Source: Desulfuromonas sp. AOP6
Lineage (GTDB): Bacteria > Desulfobacterota > Desulfuromonadia > Desulfuromonadales > SZUA-540
DNA length: 64,000 nucleotides
NCBI RefSeq assembly: GCF_009731355.2
Contig: NZ_AP022810.1
Span: forward strand, 62,001-126,000
Direction of reading: 5' to 3'
In this document: positions 2,924 to 8,732 of the stretch, piece by piece
How positions within the stretch are numbered: the first letter of the stretch is position 1
How the letters are laid out: every line of letters begins with the position of its first letter
Notes under the pieces: generated by a model
The model's database searches: none
What the model was told of the DNA's origin: nothing
What the model saw: only the letters and a program-made list of their open reading frames with translations
Position numbers and translations under genes: made by a program

Positions 2924-3427
2924 TCACCAGCAACCACCCATGTGGCTAGCCATGCGGTTCATGTGCTCCGGGTCCATGTGTCGGCCTTGCCCCATCCTGC
3001 CCCAGTGGCTTTGATGATCACAACCATTGTAACCACAGTGGAACCATGCCCCCTTGTCGCCAGCGATAAAACCACCTGCCTCATTGTTGGCCTTATCCAG
3101 CAAAGTCCAGTATTGCTGCTCAAGATCAGCAATTTCAGCTTCGAGTTGTTTCAATGTGCCGACGGTGGTGCTGTCGTTCGCTCTGGCAACACGGTATTCA
3201 TCGCTTTTGCTGTTCAAAGATGCTTGCAACTCGTCCAGCTGGCCAGAGTATTTTGTCTTTACCGCATCGAGTTGCTGAAGTTGTTCAGCGGTCAGGTTCG
3301 CGTGCGAATTGCCGCTGCCATGCCCCATCAAGTTCCCCCGGCAGGCGAAGCTAGTGGAAGCAAGTGACAGGAAACCAAGAGCAAGTGCGACGGTTATAAT
3401 TTTCTGGATATGTGCTGTTCTTTTCAT
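2924..3427 (-). CDS. ZraP/Spy-like periplasmic stress protein
   Basis: A 167-residue secreted protein. The start at 3427 is chosen because a strong Shine-Dalgarno (AAGGAGAG) precedes it and it begins a signal peptide (MKRTAHIQKI, hydrophobic core, cleavage near STSFA-CRG). The mature part has LTAEQLQQLDAVKTKYSGQ, the LTxxQ pattern of the ZraP/CpxP/Spy family, then a long alpha-helical region, and a His/Met/Cys-rich tail ending HMGGCW. Family members are periplasmic metal-binding chaperones induced by envelope or zinc stress. It is the last gene of a three-gene operon behind a sigma-54 promoter and lies beside a ZraSR-like pair, which supports the assignment. Confidence 0.8.
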   Translation of the reverse strand: MKRTAHIQKIITVALALGFLSLASTSFACRGNLMGHGSGNSHANLTAEQLQQLDAVKTKYSGQLDELQASLNSKSDEYRVARANDSTTVGTLKQLEAEIADLEQQYWTLLDKANNEAGGFIAGDKGAWFHCGYNGCDHQSHWGRMGQGRHMDPEHMNRMASHMGGCW

Positions 3428-3449
3428 CTTCTCTCTCCTTTTTTGGTGT

Positions 3450-3767
3450 TTAGCTACCAGTCTTTTCCGAAGCTGTGCTTGGTTGCTGCTCGTTACAGTA
3501 AGGGCAGTAAGACCAATCGTGCTCGATAATCCGGCTGCAGTTCGGGCAATTATGTTTGAGCGCGTTGCCGCAATGGGGGCAGCGGAAATAAGTGGCATGA
3601 ATTGCCCCGGAACATTTCGGGCAAGTCAGAGCCTGAGGGGCCGGTGCTGGTTGGCGTCTGAAAATCAGCCAGATGATGCCCGCAACAATGATCACCATAA
3701 AGAACCCCGGCATAAACCAACCGCCCATGTGCCATCCGCTCCATGCGGAACCTGGACCACAAAACAT
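3450..3767 (-). CDS. Membrane-anchored double zinc-ribbon protein
   Basis: 105 residues. The start at 3767 is preceded by AGGGGGAGAG. The N-terminal third is Gly/Trp/Met-rich (FCGPGSAWSGWHMGGW) and runs into one transmembrane helix (MVIIVAGIIWLIF). The rest holds three CxxC-type knuckles: CPKC...CPHC, CPNC and CPYC, the layout of bacterial zinc-ribbon (zinicin/DUF7577-like) proteins. It is probably a membrane-tethered zinc-binding protein facing the cytoplasm. It lies 11 bases after the mini-lipoprotein and 22 bases before the ZraP-like gene, so all three should be co-transcribed. Confidence 0.75.
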   Translation of the reverse strand: MFCGPGSAWSGWHMGGWFMPGFFMVIIVAGIIWLIFRRQPAPAPQALTCPKCSGAIHATYFRCPHCGNALKHNCPNCSRIIEHDWSYCPYCNEQQPSTASEKTGS

Positions 3768-3778
3768 TTTCTCTCCCC

Positions 3779-3943
3779 CTAATACCGCGAATGTCCGCAA
3801 CCCCGGTGGTGGGTATGCGAGCTGTCAGTGTTTGATGAATAGTGCCCGTGACCATGTCCGCCCCAGTGCCCCCAGGGGCCACAGCCTGAAAGCAGGAAAA
3901 GACTCCCGGCCAGAACGATAAGTAACAGAACTGTTTTCAGCAT
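3779..3943 (-). CDS. 54-residue His-rich mini-lipoprotein
   Basis: A short gene preceded by AAGGAGGACATC. It encodes MLKTVLLLIVLAGSLF and a lipobox LLSGC, so it is a lipoprotein of about 34 mature residues. The mature part is full of His and Gly (GPWGHWGGHGHGHY, then HTHHRGCGH), typical of a metal-binding tail. It is the first gene after the sigma-54 promoter at 3980-3996. A periplasmic zinc or copper sensor/scavenger role alongside the ZraP-like protein is inferred. Confidence 0.75.
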   Translation of the reverse strand: MLKTVLLLIVLAGSLFLLSGCGPWGHWGGHGHGHYSSNTDSSHTHHRGCGHSRY

Positions 3944-3979
3944 GATGTCCTCCTTTTCTTCATTGTTACCCAGATAAAG

Positions 3980-3996
3980 AGCAATGCCGATGCCAA
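3980..3996 (-). promoter_or_regulatory. Sigma-54 promoter of the ZraP-like operon
   Basis: Minus strand reads TTGGCATCGGCATTGCT, matching TTGGCAC-N5-TTGCT, with GG and GC separated by exactly ten bases. It lies about 37 bases upstream of the first operon gene. Confidence 0.8.
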
Positions 3997-4089
3997 CAGC
4001 GTAAGCTTATGAAAATATTAAGATAGTGCTTTGGTGTGGGGTGGTGGGCGGTTAATGTTTTTACGTTTCAGGCAGGTTTAAACCGAGCC

Positions 4090-4110
4090 ACTGTCAAAAG
4101 TTTTGACAGT
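4090..4110. promoter_or_regulatory. Palindromic candidate enhancer of the Zra-like response regulator
   Basis: A perfect palindrome: arms ACTGTCAAAA and TTTTGACAGT around one G. It sits about 95 bp upstream of the sigma-54 promoter, the usual place for activator binding sites, and one base past the stop codon of the activator gene. It has no T run, which argues against a terminator. Confidence 0.6.
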
Positions 4111-4111
4111 C

Positions 4112-5476
4112 TCAGGTCAGGCCGTATTCCTTGAGTTTGTTCTGCAGGGTCTGGCGGGTGATGCCGAGAATTTCGGCCGCACGGGTGCGGTTATTTTCGG
4201 TCTGGCGCAGGGTGGAGAGGATCAGCTCCTTCTCCATGTCTTTCAACGTCAGGCCGGGTCGGATGGCAAAGGGGCGTTCGCTATTGTCCGCATAGGACTG
4301 ACGAACCTGCAGGGGTAAATGTTGCAGGGCGATCTTTTCTTCCAGGCAGAGGATGACTGCCCTCTCGATGGCATTTTCCAGCTCACGGATATTTCCTGGC
4401 CAGTGATAAGCGAGCAACGCCTCCATCGCTTCTGATGCAAAACTGCGAATGTCTTTGCGGTTTTTATCGCAGTAAAGTTTGAGGAAATGTTCGGCCAGGG
4501 CCGGGATGTCCATCGGTCGTTCCCGCAAAGGCGGCAGGTGCAGCGGAACAACACTGAGGCGGAAAAAGAGATCCTGGCGGAAAGTTCCTTCTTCGACCAT
4601 CCGTTCCAGGTTTTTATGCGTGGCGGCGAGCATGCGAACATCAACCTTGATGGTTGCACTGCCGCCGAGCCGTTCGAATTCACCTTCCTGTAGCACACGC
4701 AGGATTTTCGCCTGGGTGGTCAGGCTCATGTCGCCGATCTCATCAAGGAACAAAGTGCCTTTATCCGCCAGTTCAAAACGCCCTTTACGCCGTTCGGCTG
4801 CGCCGGTAAAGGCTCCTTTTTCATGGCCGAACAGTTCACTTTCCAAGAGATTTTCATGCAGAGCAGCGCAGTTGACCTTGATGAAGGGCGCGTCTCTACG
4901 CAGGCTGTTGTGGTGAACCGCACCGGCAACCAACTCCTTGCCGGTGCCCGATTCGCCGGTGATCAAGACAGTCGCATCGGACGGCGCGACCAGTGACAGG
5001 GTTTCGGCCAACTCCTGCATTGGCTGGCTGCTGCCGGTTAAGTTGCCAAGATCGAACTTTTCACCCAGTCGCTGCTTCAGGGAGATGTTCTCCTGCTGCA
5101 GACTTGTGAAGTCGAGAGCCCGTTTAACGGTTAGGCTCAAGGCTTCGCTGTCAACCGGCTTGGTTACATAGTCGAAAGCCCCTTGCTTCATTGCCTCGAC
5201 AGCATTTTCCACTGAGGAAAAAGCGGTGATGATGATCACCGGAAGTTCTGGCTTGAGTTCTTGAATCTTAACCAAAGCCTCCAGTCCATCCATTCGCTGC
5301 ATCTTCAGATCCAGCAGAACGAGATCCACATCTCTTTCTTTAGCCAGATGGACTGCGACGTCGCCATCATCCGCTTCAATGATTTCGTATCCCGCTGCGC
5401 CAAGATGGGCTTTGAGCATGGTCCGATGTGCCTTATCGTCATCAACCAGAAGCAGGGTTTTTTTTGCCTGGCTCAT
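4112..5476 (-). CDS. ZraR/NtrC-family sigma-54 response regulator
   Basis: 454 residues in three parts. A receiver domain (1-125) has the acidic pocket VDDD and the phospho-acceptor D56 in LVLLDLKM. An AAA+ domain (about 145-375) has Walker A GESGTGKE, the sigma-54-contacting GAFTGA loop, and Walker [10 protein letters not shown] Fis-type HTH closes the protein (NRTRAAEILGITRQTLQNKL). The start codon overlaps the stop of the kinase gene by four bases, so the two are translationally coupled. Its likely target is the sigma-54 promoter at 3980-3996 just downstream. Confidence 0.9.
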   Translation of the reverse strand: MSQAKKTLLLVDDDKAHRTMLKAHLGAAGYEIIEADDGDVAVHLAKERDVDLVLLDLKMQRMDGLEALVKIQELKPELPVIIITAFSSVENAVEAMKQGAFDYVTKPVDSEALSLTVKRALDFTSLQQENISLKQRLGEKFDLGNLTGSSQPMQELAETLSLVAPSDATVLITGESGTGKELVAGAVHHNSLRRDAPFIKVNCAALHENLLESELFGHEKGAFTGAAERRKGRFELADKGTLFLDEIGDMSLTTQAKILRVLQEGEFERLGGSATIKVDVRMLAATHKNLERMVEEGTFRQDLFFRLSVVPLHLPPLRERPMDIPALAEHFLKLYCDKNRKDIRSFASEAMEALLAYHWPGNIRELENAIERAVILCLEEKIALQHLPLQVRQSYADNSERPFAIRPGLTLKDMEKELILSTLRQTENNRTRAAEILGITRQTLQNKLKEYGLT

Positions 5477-7239
5477 GCTTGCTCCTTCCGCAGCGGCAGG
5501 ATGATAGTAATGCAGGTTCCCTGGCCGAGCTCACTGGTCACTTCAATACGCCCATTGTGTTGCTCGATGATCTGTTGCACCAGAGCGAGACCAAGGCCGG
5601 TGCCATCTTTCCGGGTGGTGTAGAAGGGGTCGAACATTTTTGCCTGTTCTTCTCTGCTGATACCCTTGCCGGTATCCTGAACCCACAAACGGACAGTTTC
5701 TTCCGCCTCTTTCCCGCCAAGAAAAATGGTGTCAGCGACAGCGGTTGCCGCCAGACTGTTCTGCAGCAGATTGAGGAACACCTGCTGCAACAGGTCTGCA
5801 TCCGCGCACAGTTTTAAACCCGACCCATGGATTTGTAGCTCCAACCCAACTCCTTTGCTTTTGGCTTCCTCCTGCACGAAAGTCAGGCATTTCTGCGCAA
5901 TACTGCTGAAGTCGATCTTCATCAGTTCGGGCTCTCTCGGTCTGGAAAATTGCAGTAAGGCGGAAACCGTGCGATTGAGGCGATCAACTTCGCCAACCAT
6001 CAGGTCTGCATATTCCTTCGCTTGTGCATCCTGCCCGGTGTTGCGGCTAAAGTACTGGGCGAAGCCCCGCAGCGTTCCAAGAGGGTTGCGGATCTCATGG
6101 GCAACTCCGGCGGCCATCTGCCCGAGTGCTGCGTGGCGACGGGAACGTTCCAAGGCCTCTTCCATGGCTTTGATTTCCCGCTGATCCCGCAAGATCAAGA
6201 CCATCCCGCGCAAGCTGCCTTCCCGATCCCGCAGGTGGGACGCGCTGACTTTTAAGGGAACCGTTTCACCATCCTGGCGGAGACAGTCCATCGGTTGGTC
6301 GATAAATTCCTTACCGGAACGTAAGAAAGGGGCGAGTGAACACTCTTCGGGGCCTGTCAACTGTTGCAGGGTTTTGCCGTGCATATCGAGCTCTTTGCGG
6401 CCGAATATCTCCAGGGCTTTGCTATTTGCTGAAACAATCCGCCGTTCCGTATCGATACTGATCAAACCGGCCGGCATGCTGTTGATCACATTGTCGGTGT
6501 ACAGCTCCATGTTCTCCAGCGCTGCCTTGGTAACCTGGGATTTGTGCGACAGGAACAGGGCATAGAGGCCACCCGAACTAAGCAGAAACAGAATGCCGAA
6601 TAAGATCAGGCTCTGCTTAACATCTTCAGCGCGGGCGGCATCAAAGTCTTCCGTGTAGAGCCCCAGGTAGATGAGCTGTCGACATTCACTATTGTCGTTG
6701 CTACCCGGCATTCCACACCAGTTCCGCCAGCGTTGCATCATCCCCATCCGTCTCGGCATCATGCTCAACGGACTGAACTCTTTGGCAATTTCATAAATCC
6801 GCTCTCCTGATGAATCGGTCAGGAACCTTGCCAGTGGTTGAGCATTGCTCAAGACTTGTAACCCTGGAGGCAGGTCGGTCGGCTCCGGTGCTTCTCCGGC
6901 ACTGGCAATGGGGTGACCTTTCTCATCTTGGATCACGATATAGGCGATGGTTTCCTCGCGAGCTGTTTCTGTGACCAGAGTGGCGAGGTTGCCGCCGCTT
7001 GGTCCCATCATCATCGAGGTTCTGGCCCCAGCCTCAAACGCTCGGATCAACGTTTCTGCTTCTTTCAGCAGAAACCCTTCCATGAATTGCTCTTCGCGAT
7101 CCAGATTGTGCCACGTGACGATAGCCAGAACACCGGCCAGCAGCAGGCTGGCCAGAATAAACCCCAGTGCCGGTAGAGAGATGTGCCTCTTCGTGTGGTT
7201 CCTCGGAGCCATGTTTTTGCTGTGTTCCTGTGTTGACAT
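5473..7239 (-). CDS. ZraS-like membrane sensor histidine kinase with PAS
   Basis: 588 residues. TM1 (about 22-43) and TM2 (about 215-235) enclose a periplasmic sensor region that is rich in Met (TSMMMGP, SMMPRRMGMMQRW) with two Cys, which suggests soft-metal sensing. A PAS domain follows (VINSMPAGLISIDTERR). HisKA carries AGVAHEIRNPLG with the phosphorylated His, and the ATPase has the N box (LNLLQNSLAA), G1 (DTGKGIS) and G2 (GTGLGLALV). An in-frame ATG at 7212 is a possible alternative start. It pairs with the overlapping response regulator and is divergent from the arsR-permease operon. Confidence 0.88.
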   Translation of the reverse strand: MSTQEHSKNMAPRNHTKRHISLPALGFILASLLLAGVLAIVTWHNLDREEQFMEGFLLKEAETLIRAFEAGARTSMMMGPSGGNLATLVTETAREETIAYIVIQDEKGHPIASAGEAPEPTDLPPGLQVLSNAQPLARFLTDSSGERIYEIAKEFSPLSMMPRRMGMMQRWRNWCGMPGSNDNSECRQLIYLGLYTEDFDAARAEDVKQSLILFGILFLLSSGGLYALFLSHKSQVTKAALENMELYTDNVINSMPAGLISIDTERRIVSANSKALEIFGRKELDMHGKTLQQLTGPEECSLAPFLRSGKEFIDQPMDCLRQDGETVPLKVSASHLRDREGSLRGMVLILRDQREIKAMEEALERSRRHAALGQMAAGVAHEIRNPLGTLRGFAQYFSRNTGQDAQAKEYADLMVGEVDRLNRTVSALLQFSRPREPELMKIDFSSIAQKCLTFVQEEAKSKGVGLELQIHGSGLKLCADADLLQQVFLNLLQNSLAATAVADTIFLGGKEAEETVRLWVQDTGKGISREEQAKMFDPFYTTRKDGTGLGLALVQQIIEQHNGRIEVTSELGQGTCITIILPLRKEQA

Positions 7240-7302: not shown

Positions 7303-7662
7303 ATGGACCAGGATATTTGTCAAGTTAACCTTATCCACGAGGATCGTGTCACTGAAGCGAAAAAGCAGATGCCGCTACTGGCAATTGTCGAGCAGATGGC
7401 GTCTGTCTATAAACTTCTCGGCGAACCGTCACGGCTTAAGATCATGCTTGCCTTAAGCGCGTGTGAAATGTGCGTTTGCGACTTGGCGGCGATGCTGGAT
7501 TCAACCCCCTCGGCAATCTCGCATCAACTTAAACTGCTGCGCATGACCGGATTGGTCCAGGCCCGAAAGGAAGGCAAAATGGTTTACTACAGCCTTGAAG
7601 ATGCTGCGGTTAAACCAATTCTGCTTGCTGGCCGGAATTACGCGAACGAGAAAAAGGTCTGA
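7303..7662 (+). CDS. ArsR/SmtB-family metalloregulator
   Basis: 119 residues with a winged-helix fold: YKLLGEPSRLKIMLAL, then the metal-binding helix SACEMCVCDLAAML, the recognition helix STPSAISHQLKLLRM, and the wing QARKEGKMVYYSL. The Cys-x-x-Cys-x-Cys-Asp arrangement in alpha-3 is that of As(III)/Cd(II)/Pb(II)-responsive repressors. Metal binding would release it from the operator just upstream. The permease gene starts two bases after its stop codon, so the repressor controls the permease. Confidence 0.88.
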   Translation: MDQDICQVNLIHEDRVTEAKKQMPLLAIVEQMASVYKLLGEPSRLKIMLALSACEMCVCDLAAMLDSTPSAISHQLKLLRMTGLVQARKEGKMVYYSLEDAAVKPILLAGRNYANEKKV

Positions 7663-7664
7663 AG

Positions 7665-8732
7665 ATGGATATGTTTGTTGGCGTTTTTCTGGAATCGTGG
7701 GAGGTGCTGGCGGAGTCCGCCCCTTACGTTCTGTTCGGTTTTTTTGCTGCAGGCATCCTCAAGACTTATCTCCCTGAACAGATGGTTGCGAAACACTTGG
7801 GGAGCAATTCGACCTCTTCTGTCATAAAGGCATCCCTGTTCGGCATCCCTTTGCCGCTTTGCTCCTGCGGGGTTATTCCAGCGGCGATAGAATTGCGGAA
7901 ACAGGGTGCCAGTAAAGGGGCTTCGGCAGCCTTTTTGGTTTCAGTTCCTGAGACAGGTGTCGATTCGATTGCCATCACCTGGGCGTTGCTCGATCCGGTG
8001 ATGACGATTGTTCGCCCGATCTCCTCCTTTTTTACCGCAACCCTGACCGGACTCTTCATCAACCGTTTGCCCGAAGATGTGGAACCCGCTTCGCAAGAGG
8101 AGGCGAAACAGCCCGGCTGTGGCTGACCGGCTAAGACGGATGGGGGTCCCCCATCAAAAAGCAAAGAATCACACTTTTCCCGCATTCGTTCCGGGCTGGC
8201 TTATGCCTTTGGCGATCTGCTCGGTGATATCGGCAGATGGCTGCTGCTCGGAATCGTTATTGCCGGTCTGATTTCATATCTTGTCCCTGATGATTTTTTC
8301 CTGCGCTATATGGGCAACGAAGCTCTGTCGCTACTGATTATGTTGGGGGTAGGCATTCCCATCTATATCTGTGCCAGCGCTTCGACTCCCGTTGCTGCAG
8401 CCTTAGTCCTGAAAGGACTCTCTCCGGGTGCAGCACTGGTCTTTCTGCTGGCCGGACCTGCAACCAATGCCGCCACATTAACCGTTGTTGCGCGTTACTT
8501 CGGCAAACAGGCCACCATGGTCTATCTGGCCTCAATTGCGATCTGCTCGTTGGTTTTTGGCTGGTTAACGAACCGACTTTACGAATGGCTTGAGCTTGAC
8601 ATTATAATGTGGGCCAATGAGCCGACCGATGTGTCGGATTCGCTGTTTATGCAAGTTTCGGCGGTGGTGGTGCTTTTCTTTATTCTGCTTAATCCGCTCT
8701 CCCAGAAATTAAAAGATACTTCTGACGGGTAA
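7665..8732 (+). CDS. SO_0444/ArsP-like metal permease; candidate selenoprotein (Sec154)
   Basis: Two halves of one permease lie in the same frame. The first (to 8123) has membrane spans and the family signature LFGIPLPLCSCGVIPAAIEL plus PETGVDS; the second (from 8127) has GLAYAFGDLLGDIGRW, GVGIPIYICASASTPVAAAL and LAGPATNAAT. They are separated only by a UGA at 8124-8126, in the hydrophilic linker of the family, which is usually Cys-rich; here it reads QPGCG-UGA-PAK, so the stop replaces the second Cys of a CGC-like site. A hairpin with loop GGUCC starts 12 bases later (8139-8155). Nothing else in either half is damaged and there is no good restart site. I read this as a 355-residue selenoprotein efflux permease; a nonsense mutation is the alternative. 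Confidence 0.65.
8127..8155 (+). promoter_or_regulatory. Putative bacterial SECIS element
   Basis: The mRNA right after the in-frame UGA forms a hairpin: arms GAUGGG (8139-8144) and CCCAUC (8150-8155), loop GGUCC. The loop begins with GG 18 bases after the UGA, within the 16-37 base window known for bacterial SECIS elements, and shares the GGUC core of the E. coli fdhF SECIS loop. SelB binding is inferred. Confidence 0.55.

Follow-up and report, generated by a model that had tools for sequence, protein, structure and literature searches.

In a 64,000-nucleotide stretch of the Desulfuromonas sp. AOP6 genome (the window), a permease frame on the forward strand (7665-8732) is interrupted by a single TGA (8124-8126, codon 154, in the context ...KQPGCG-U-PAKTDGG...), which raises the question of whether the gene is broken, is divided into two chains, or is translated through this codon as a selenoprotein. 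A sequence-only reading had proposed a candidate selenoprotein whose halves share one frame split by the UGA alone. The frame is otherwise open; and the selenocysteine (Sec) machinery of the host, the conservation of UGA or cysteine at this codon and a covarying hairpin downstream support the proposal, such that we regard it as very probable (roughly 93%) that the gene encodes a metal exporter of the SO_0444 family in which UGA154 would be decoded as Sec. It is one of 41 in-frame UGA candidates in the window, the other 40 of which were inspected by eye.

Family and layout of the permease

Read through the UGA as a protein of 355 residues with Sec154, the permease scores 428.1 bits against NF033936, the NCBIfam model of SO_0444 family Cu/Zn efflux transporters (cut-off 300), whereas its halves taken singly score 214.5 and 218.1 bits, both below the cut-off; that only the read-through product passes counts in favour of a single Sec-decoded exporter. 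The assignment to the SO_0444 family that had been made from the letters is thereby borne out, and the accompanying description as ArsP-like holds at the Pfam level only (ArsP_1, PF03773, 165.4 bits), the specific family being SO_0444. The SaoE efflux transporter (NF040736) is a homologous permease, but at 190 bits the match is below its cut-off of 325. The window permease shares with Shewanella SO_0444 the family score and a core CSC motif (C66-S67-C68, 7860-7868, forward strand), and differs from it in the putative Sec of its linker. The core CxC is invariant in a 45-row alignment with Sec counted as Cys, as is Cys236 in the second half (8370-8372, forward strand), a possible third core ligand. 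AlphaFold2 predicts two helical halves (mean pLDDT 77, pTM 0.79) connected by a linker (residues 140-164, 8082-8156, forward strand; pLDDT < 50) that contains the GCGU sequence. A search of the PDB by sequence returned no matches at E up to 1, and a search by fold returned nothing at E 0.001 or better (best, 0.067). All 596 plasmid records that match the permease are less than 60% identical to it. The GC content of the gene is 0.522, compared to 0.544 for the window and 0.646 for a paralogue in the host genome.

The two halves resemble each other (26%, E 9.9e-10) and either one singly matches the family, as in a permease of two chains, of which the first would end at a true UGA stop and the second would be made separately from an internal start; in one relative (G016), the two halves do not share a frame, although this case may be an artefact of assembly or decay. 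We consider such a division very unlikely: downstream of the UGA, no ATG, GTG or TTG occurs in frame until position 8310 (residue 216), deep in the second half; relatives mostly have a sense codon at the place of the UGA, within an unbroken frame; and a stop codon leaves the covarying hairpin described below unexplained.

Conservation of the UGA codon and its hairpin

By annotation, the host cell is able to make selenocysteine: selA adjoins selB, followed by selD, and the genome encodes a tRNA-Sec (anticodon TCA), which completes the selA/selB/selC/selD set that the sequence-only reading had proposed to look for. The selD gene of the host (L006:3413-4453) also has an in-frame TGA, reading SAG-U-AAK. 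General use of UGA as a sense codon was considered and rejected, as the adjacent arsR gene terminates on TGA, indicating that UGA retains its role as a terminator here, and the genome has a dedicated Sec system. SelB is found in all 15 genomes with a Sec-form permease, but it discriminates weakly because it is common across the class (236 of 277 genomes).

Among these 277 genomes of the class to which the host belongs, 69 have a match to the permease at E 1e-50 or better. An internal TGA is present in 16 of the 81 class matches listed, from 15 genomes, and in every case it occupies one aligned codon straight after Gly-Cys-Gly (GCG-U). In 68 full-length aligned rows, the column of codon 154 contains TGA in 15, Cys in 44, and a gap or another residue in nine, so that 59 of the 68 carry UGA or Cys, and none carries TAA or TAG; the sixteenth TGA belongs to a fragment (G077) outside these rows. 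Thus, the in-frame UGA aligns with Cys of homologues, as in bacterial selenoproteins, and the suggestion that the family commonly has Cys at this place is confirmed. The paralogue in the host genome, 66% identical to the permease, has neither Cys nor Sec in its linker; judging from this protein and from the nine rows without either residue, the linker motif is dispensable within the family.

Of the 81 class matches listed, 70 were fetched initially and the remaining 11 showed no TGA; four of the latter, with G016 counted as two, were inspected later, and the other seven were left out of inspection. Two duplicate rows were removed, and the two pieces of G077 were omitted from the protein alignment and the tree, one of which (L084) is included in the hairpin alignment. 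In G053 and G077, the TAG and the TAA, respectively, are terminal stops. L149 (G016) is a damaged Cys form with its halves on one contig, and L150 (G020:C106) is a degenerate copy that has suffered a deletion and contains a TAG 5' of the codon, with CGC kept; neither the decay nor the frameshift in these genomes is due to a TGA at the codon-154 position. Two genomes in which no SelB was found, G048 and G061 (81% and 78% complete), encode Cys forms that are near Sec forms in the tree. The Cys form of G048 (L036, 696-1709) keeps a hairpin remnant, in which the otherwise invariant GU reads GC; this single case looks like a relic of a Sec form.

The hairpin predicted at 8139-8155 (forward strand; GAUGGG-GGUCC-CCCAUC) pairs 8139-8144 with 8150-8155 around the loop GGUCC (8145-8149); our count agrees with that of the sequence-only reading, with the stem 12 bases, and the first base of the loop 18 bases, from the UGA. 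It conforms to the rules for bacterial Sec insertion elements (bSECIS) given in a 2026 review (PMC13188914), namely a loop of 3-9 nt, a stem of 4-16 bp, G in the first two loop positions, a distance of 16-37 nt from the UGA, and a minimum free energy at or below -7.5: folded by itself, it has -10.1 kcal/mol, with the loop 19 nt after the UGA in its 7-bp form. By the same rule test, 12 of the 16 Sec forms pass, compared to two of the 44 Cys forms and 163 of 3200 shuffles; the four Sec forms that do not pass fail the -7.5 kcal/mol cut. The folding energy of the window hairpin is ordinary (z = -1.21; equalled or bettered by 21 of 200 shuffles), and a search of the 64,000 nucleotides against Rfam at gathering thresholds returned no matches.

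What places the hairpin beyond chance is not its energy but its conservation in all 16 internal-TGA matches of the class. The 16 Sec-form stretches align without gaps, each with the hairpin in the same register, and RNAalifold, unaided, gives the identical stem. Outside the UGA, the only invariant columns of the 16-row alignment are G23 and T24, the GU of the loop, to which G8146 and U8147 of the window correspond; T24 is a third codon position, and its invariance is poorly explained by protein coding alone. Across the six-pair stem, 97.9% of cells are paired, compared to 43.8-68.8% in registers slid by 1-3, and five of the six pairs have changed on both sides. Cells changed on both sides number 18, against a shuffled mean of 4.6, and none of 500 shuffles reaches 18; two of the whole-structure measures, the number of pairs with a double change and that of further pair types, are not extreme (reached in 36 and 79 of 500 shuffles, respectively). 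The hairpin is thus conserved with compensatory changes; this, the machinery and the prevalence of UGA or Cys among relatives are the three points on which the sequence-only reading had exposed itself to refutation, and on each it stands.

A nonsense mutation in a once-intact Cys permease, or a sequencing error, would likewise leave a single in-frame stop, in a genome that has an intact paralogue; and decay does occur in this family, for instance in one of the three G020 copies (with TAG and deletion). Nevertheless, the codons 3' of the UGA are under purifying selection in the pairs of Sec forms measured (dN versus dS of 0.091 versus 0.48, 0.111 versus 0.27, and 0.025 versus 0.08); dN is below dS in the pairs with measurable dS, synonymous change between the window and its nearest relatives being near saturation. 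The recurrence of UGA at a single codon in 16 matches (15 genomes), in a column free of TAA and TAG, and the covariation of the hairpin lead us to consider a pseudogene or an error extremely improbable, and they weigh in the same way against two separate chains.

Two probable selenocysteine sites in one family

The sequence-only reading knew of no described Sec-containing member, and this part of it has not stood. The 2026 review (PMC13188914) lists the SO_0444 family as a selenoprotein with a UxC motif and one Sec, "GenBank annotated" (WP_014809615.1). That protein belongs to the same NCBIfam family as the window permease, yet apparently has Sec at another residue: judging from the motif, its position is the first Cys of the core (PL-U-SCG). 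The window permease combines a Cys-containing core with the putative Sec of a linker C-x-U; its core reads CSC, and in its linker the CGU is not followed by Cys two positions later. The occurrence of Sec in the SO_0444 family is already known; UxC fits the core and not the linker CGU, and the linker position is very probably a second, distinct Sec site that we have not found described. The literature search, largely among journals open without subscription and in articles without their supplements, returned no description of a linker Sec, and the deep-Sep paper (PMC12013277) mentions neither transporters, permeases or efflux nor NF033936.

A wider survey distinguishes the two sites. A match at E 1e-40 or better was obtained in 94 of 395 genomes sampled from the phylum, and 45 loci of this survey were inspected, including all 11 TGA-bearing matches outside the class. 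In each of these, the first Cys codon of the core CxC is a TGA (PL-U-SCG). Ten of these SO_0444-family permeases (L123, L124, L127 and L129-L135) have the core-site UGA. The other, L111 (G345, 1501-2529), in an assembly of about 170 contigs, has two in-frame TGAs, located in the core CxC and in the linker; its linker TGA is one alignment column away from that of the window, and L111 is possibly a double selenoprotein transporter. A DNA pattern of GCGU plus hairpin, which matches 14 of the 16 Sec forms and would miss other spacings, occurs in eight contigs among 84,980 genomes; these are assigned to Desulfuromonadales, Desulfuromonadaceae, Desulfuromonas, Geoalkalibacter, Geothermobacter hydrogeniphilus HR-1 and Malonomonas rubra DSM 5091, and Geoalkalibacter, Geothermobacter and Malonomonas are all of the order Desulfuromonadales. 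On a tree of 112 rows, built by a quick method after exclusion of the linker and of the core Cys column, at least 11 changes are needed to account for the linker Sec and at least seven for the core Sec; support is modest, with 33 of the 109 inner branches under 80.

Gene neighbourhood, cargo and proposed mechanism

As the sequence-only reading stated, an ArsR repressor is encoded directly upstream: an ArsR/SmtB-family metalloregulator (7303-7662, forward strand; NF033788, 90.8 bits, cut-off 55), the first gene of a putative two-gene operon, terminates on TGA at 7662, two bases before the permease start at 7665. A gene resembling it is directly upstream in 17 of 32 loci (L022-L053), and in eight of the 14 Sec-form places with flanking sequence; no such match is present at the other six, one of which is at a contig end. 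Divergently encoded (2924-7239, reverse strand) are a protein weakly similar to ZraP (31.9 bits, cut-off 200) and a two-component pair resembling ZraS/ZraR or AtoS/AtoC, the scores of which likewise do not reach the cut-offs of the families shown. These genes are possibly metal-responsive, perhaps part of a metal-stress island, and are offered as context only.

ArsP permeases export trivalent organoarsenicals. The cargo predicted for the window permease is different. According to PMC3219624, Shewanella SO_0444 mutants fail under zinc or copper stress, the gene being needed for growth in ZnSO4 or CuCl2, and its regulator is a putative ZntR orthologue, in contrast to the ArsR-type regulator of the window; PMC10092412 reports induction by cadmium and copper in Nitratiruptor. 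By analogy with the Shewanella mutant phenotype, the window permease may export copper and/or zinc. Of the soft metal or metalloid that had been suggested as substrate, the former is favoured: as the namesake of the family is tied to copper and zinc stress, arsenicals are less likely than a thiophilic metal ion to be the cargo.

We propose that the exporter is made and functions in the following steps: repression of the arsR-permease pair, probably by ArsR, until metal binding; decoding of UGA154 by SelB and tRNA-Sec, which would be directed by the hairpin located 12 nt 3' of the codon; placement in the inner membrane, the side on which the linker lies being conjectural; capture of a soft metal ion (of the Cu(I), Zn/Cd or Hg class) by the selenol and thiol of Sec154 and Cys152, which would form a C-x-U motif in the flexible linker that joins the membrane halves; and hand-over of the captured metal to a membrane-core site around C66/C68 and perhaps C236. 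Taken alone, the capture and hand-over by the linker has about an even chance of being correct. The disorder of the linker in the AlphaFold2 model makes a hand-over invisible in the structure, and the existence of a 66%-identical paralogue without Cys or Sec in this place suggests that the arm is accessory.

C-x-U resembles redox pairs, and even with Sec inserted, the motif could serve redox sensing or regulation, or could be the product of near-neutral drift from Cys; the paralogue that does without the motif and the frequency of exchange between Sec and other forms are in keeping with this. The fact that UGA and hairpin have been retained repeatedly, in many families of the class, speaks against drift, and Cys-rich linkers, found in many relatives, are suited to metal binding, although neither point is decisive; given Sec, we consider such a role rather unlikely. 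At somewhat less than even odds, we suggest that the family carries Sec at two points of a presumed metal path, repeatedly gained and lost, with the selenol of the linker C-x-U acting as a capture arm that feeds the core.

Most well-studied selenoproteins are redox enzymes. If the proposal of two Sec points and a capture arm is true, selenocysteine would act in these exporters as a ligand for soft-metal transport rather than as a redox catalyst. Gene finders that halt at UGA would render such exporters as two broken halves. With two Sec positions, frequent exchange of Sec and Cys, and a paralogue that has neither in its linker, the SO_0444 family offers a natural comparison for the role of selenium in metal handling.
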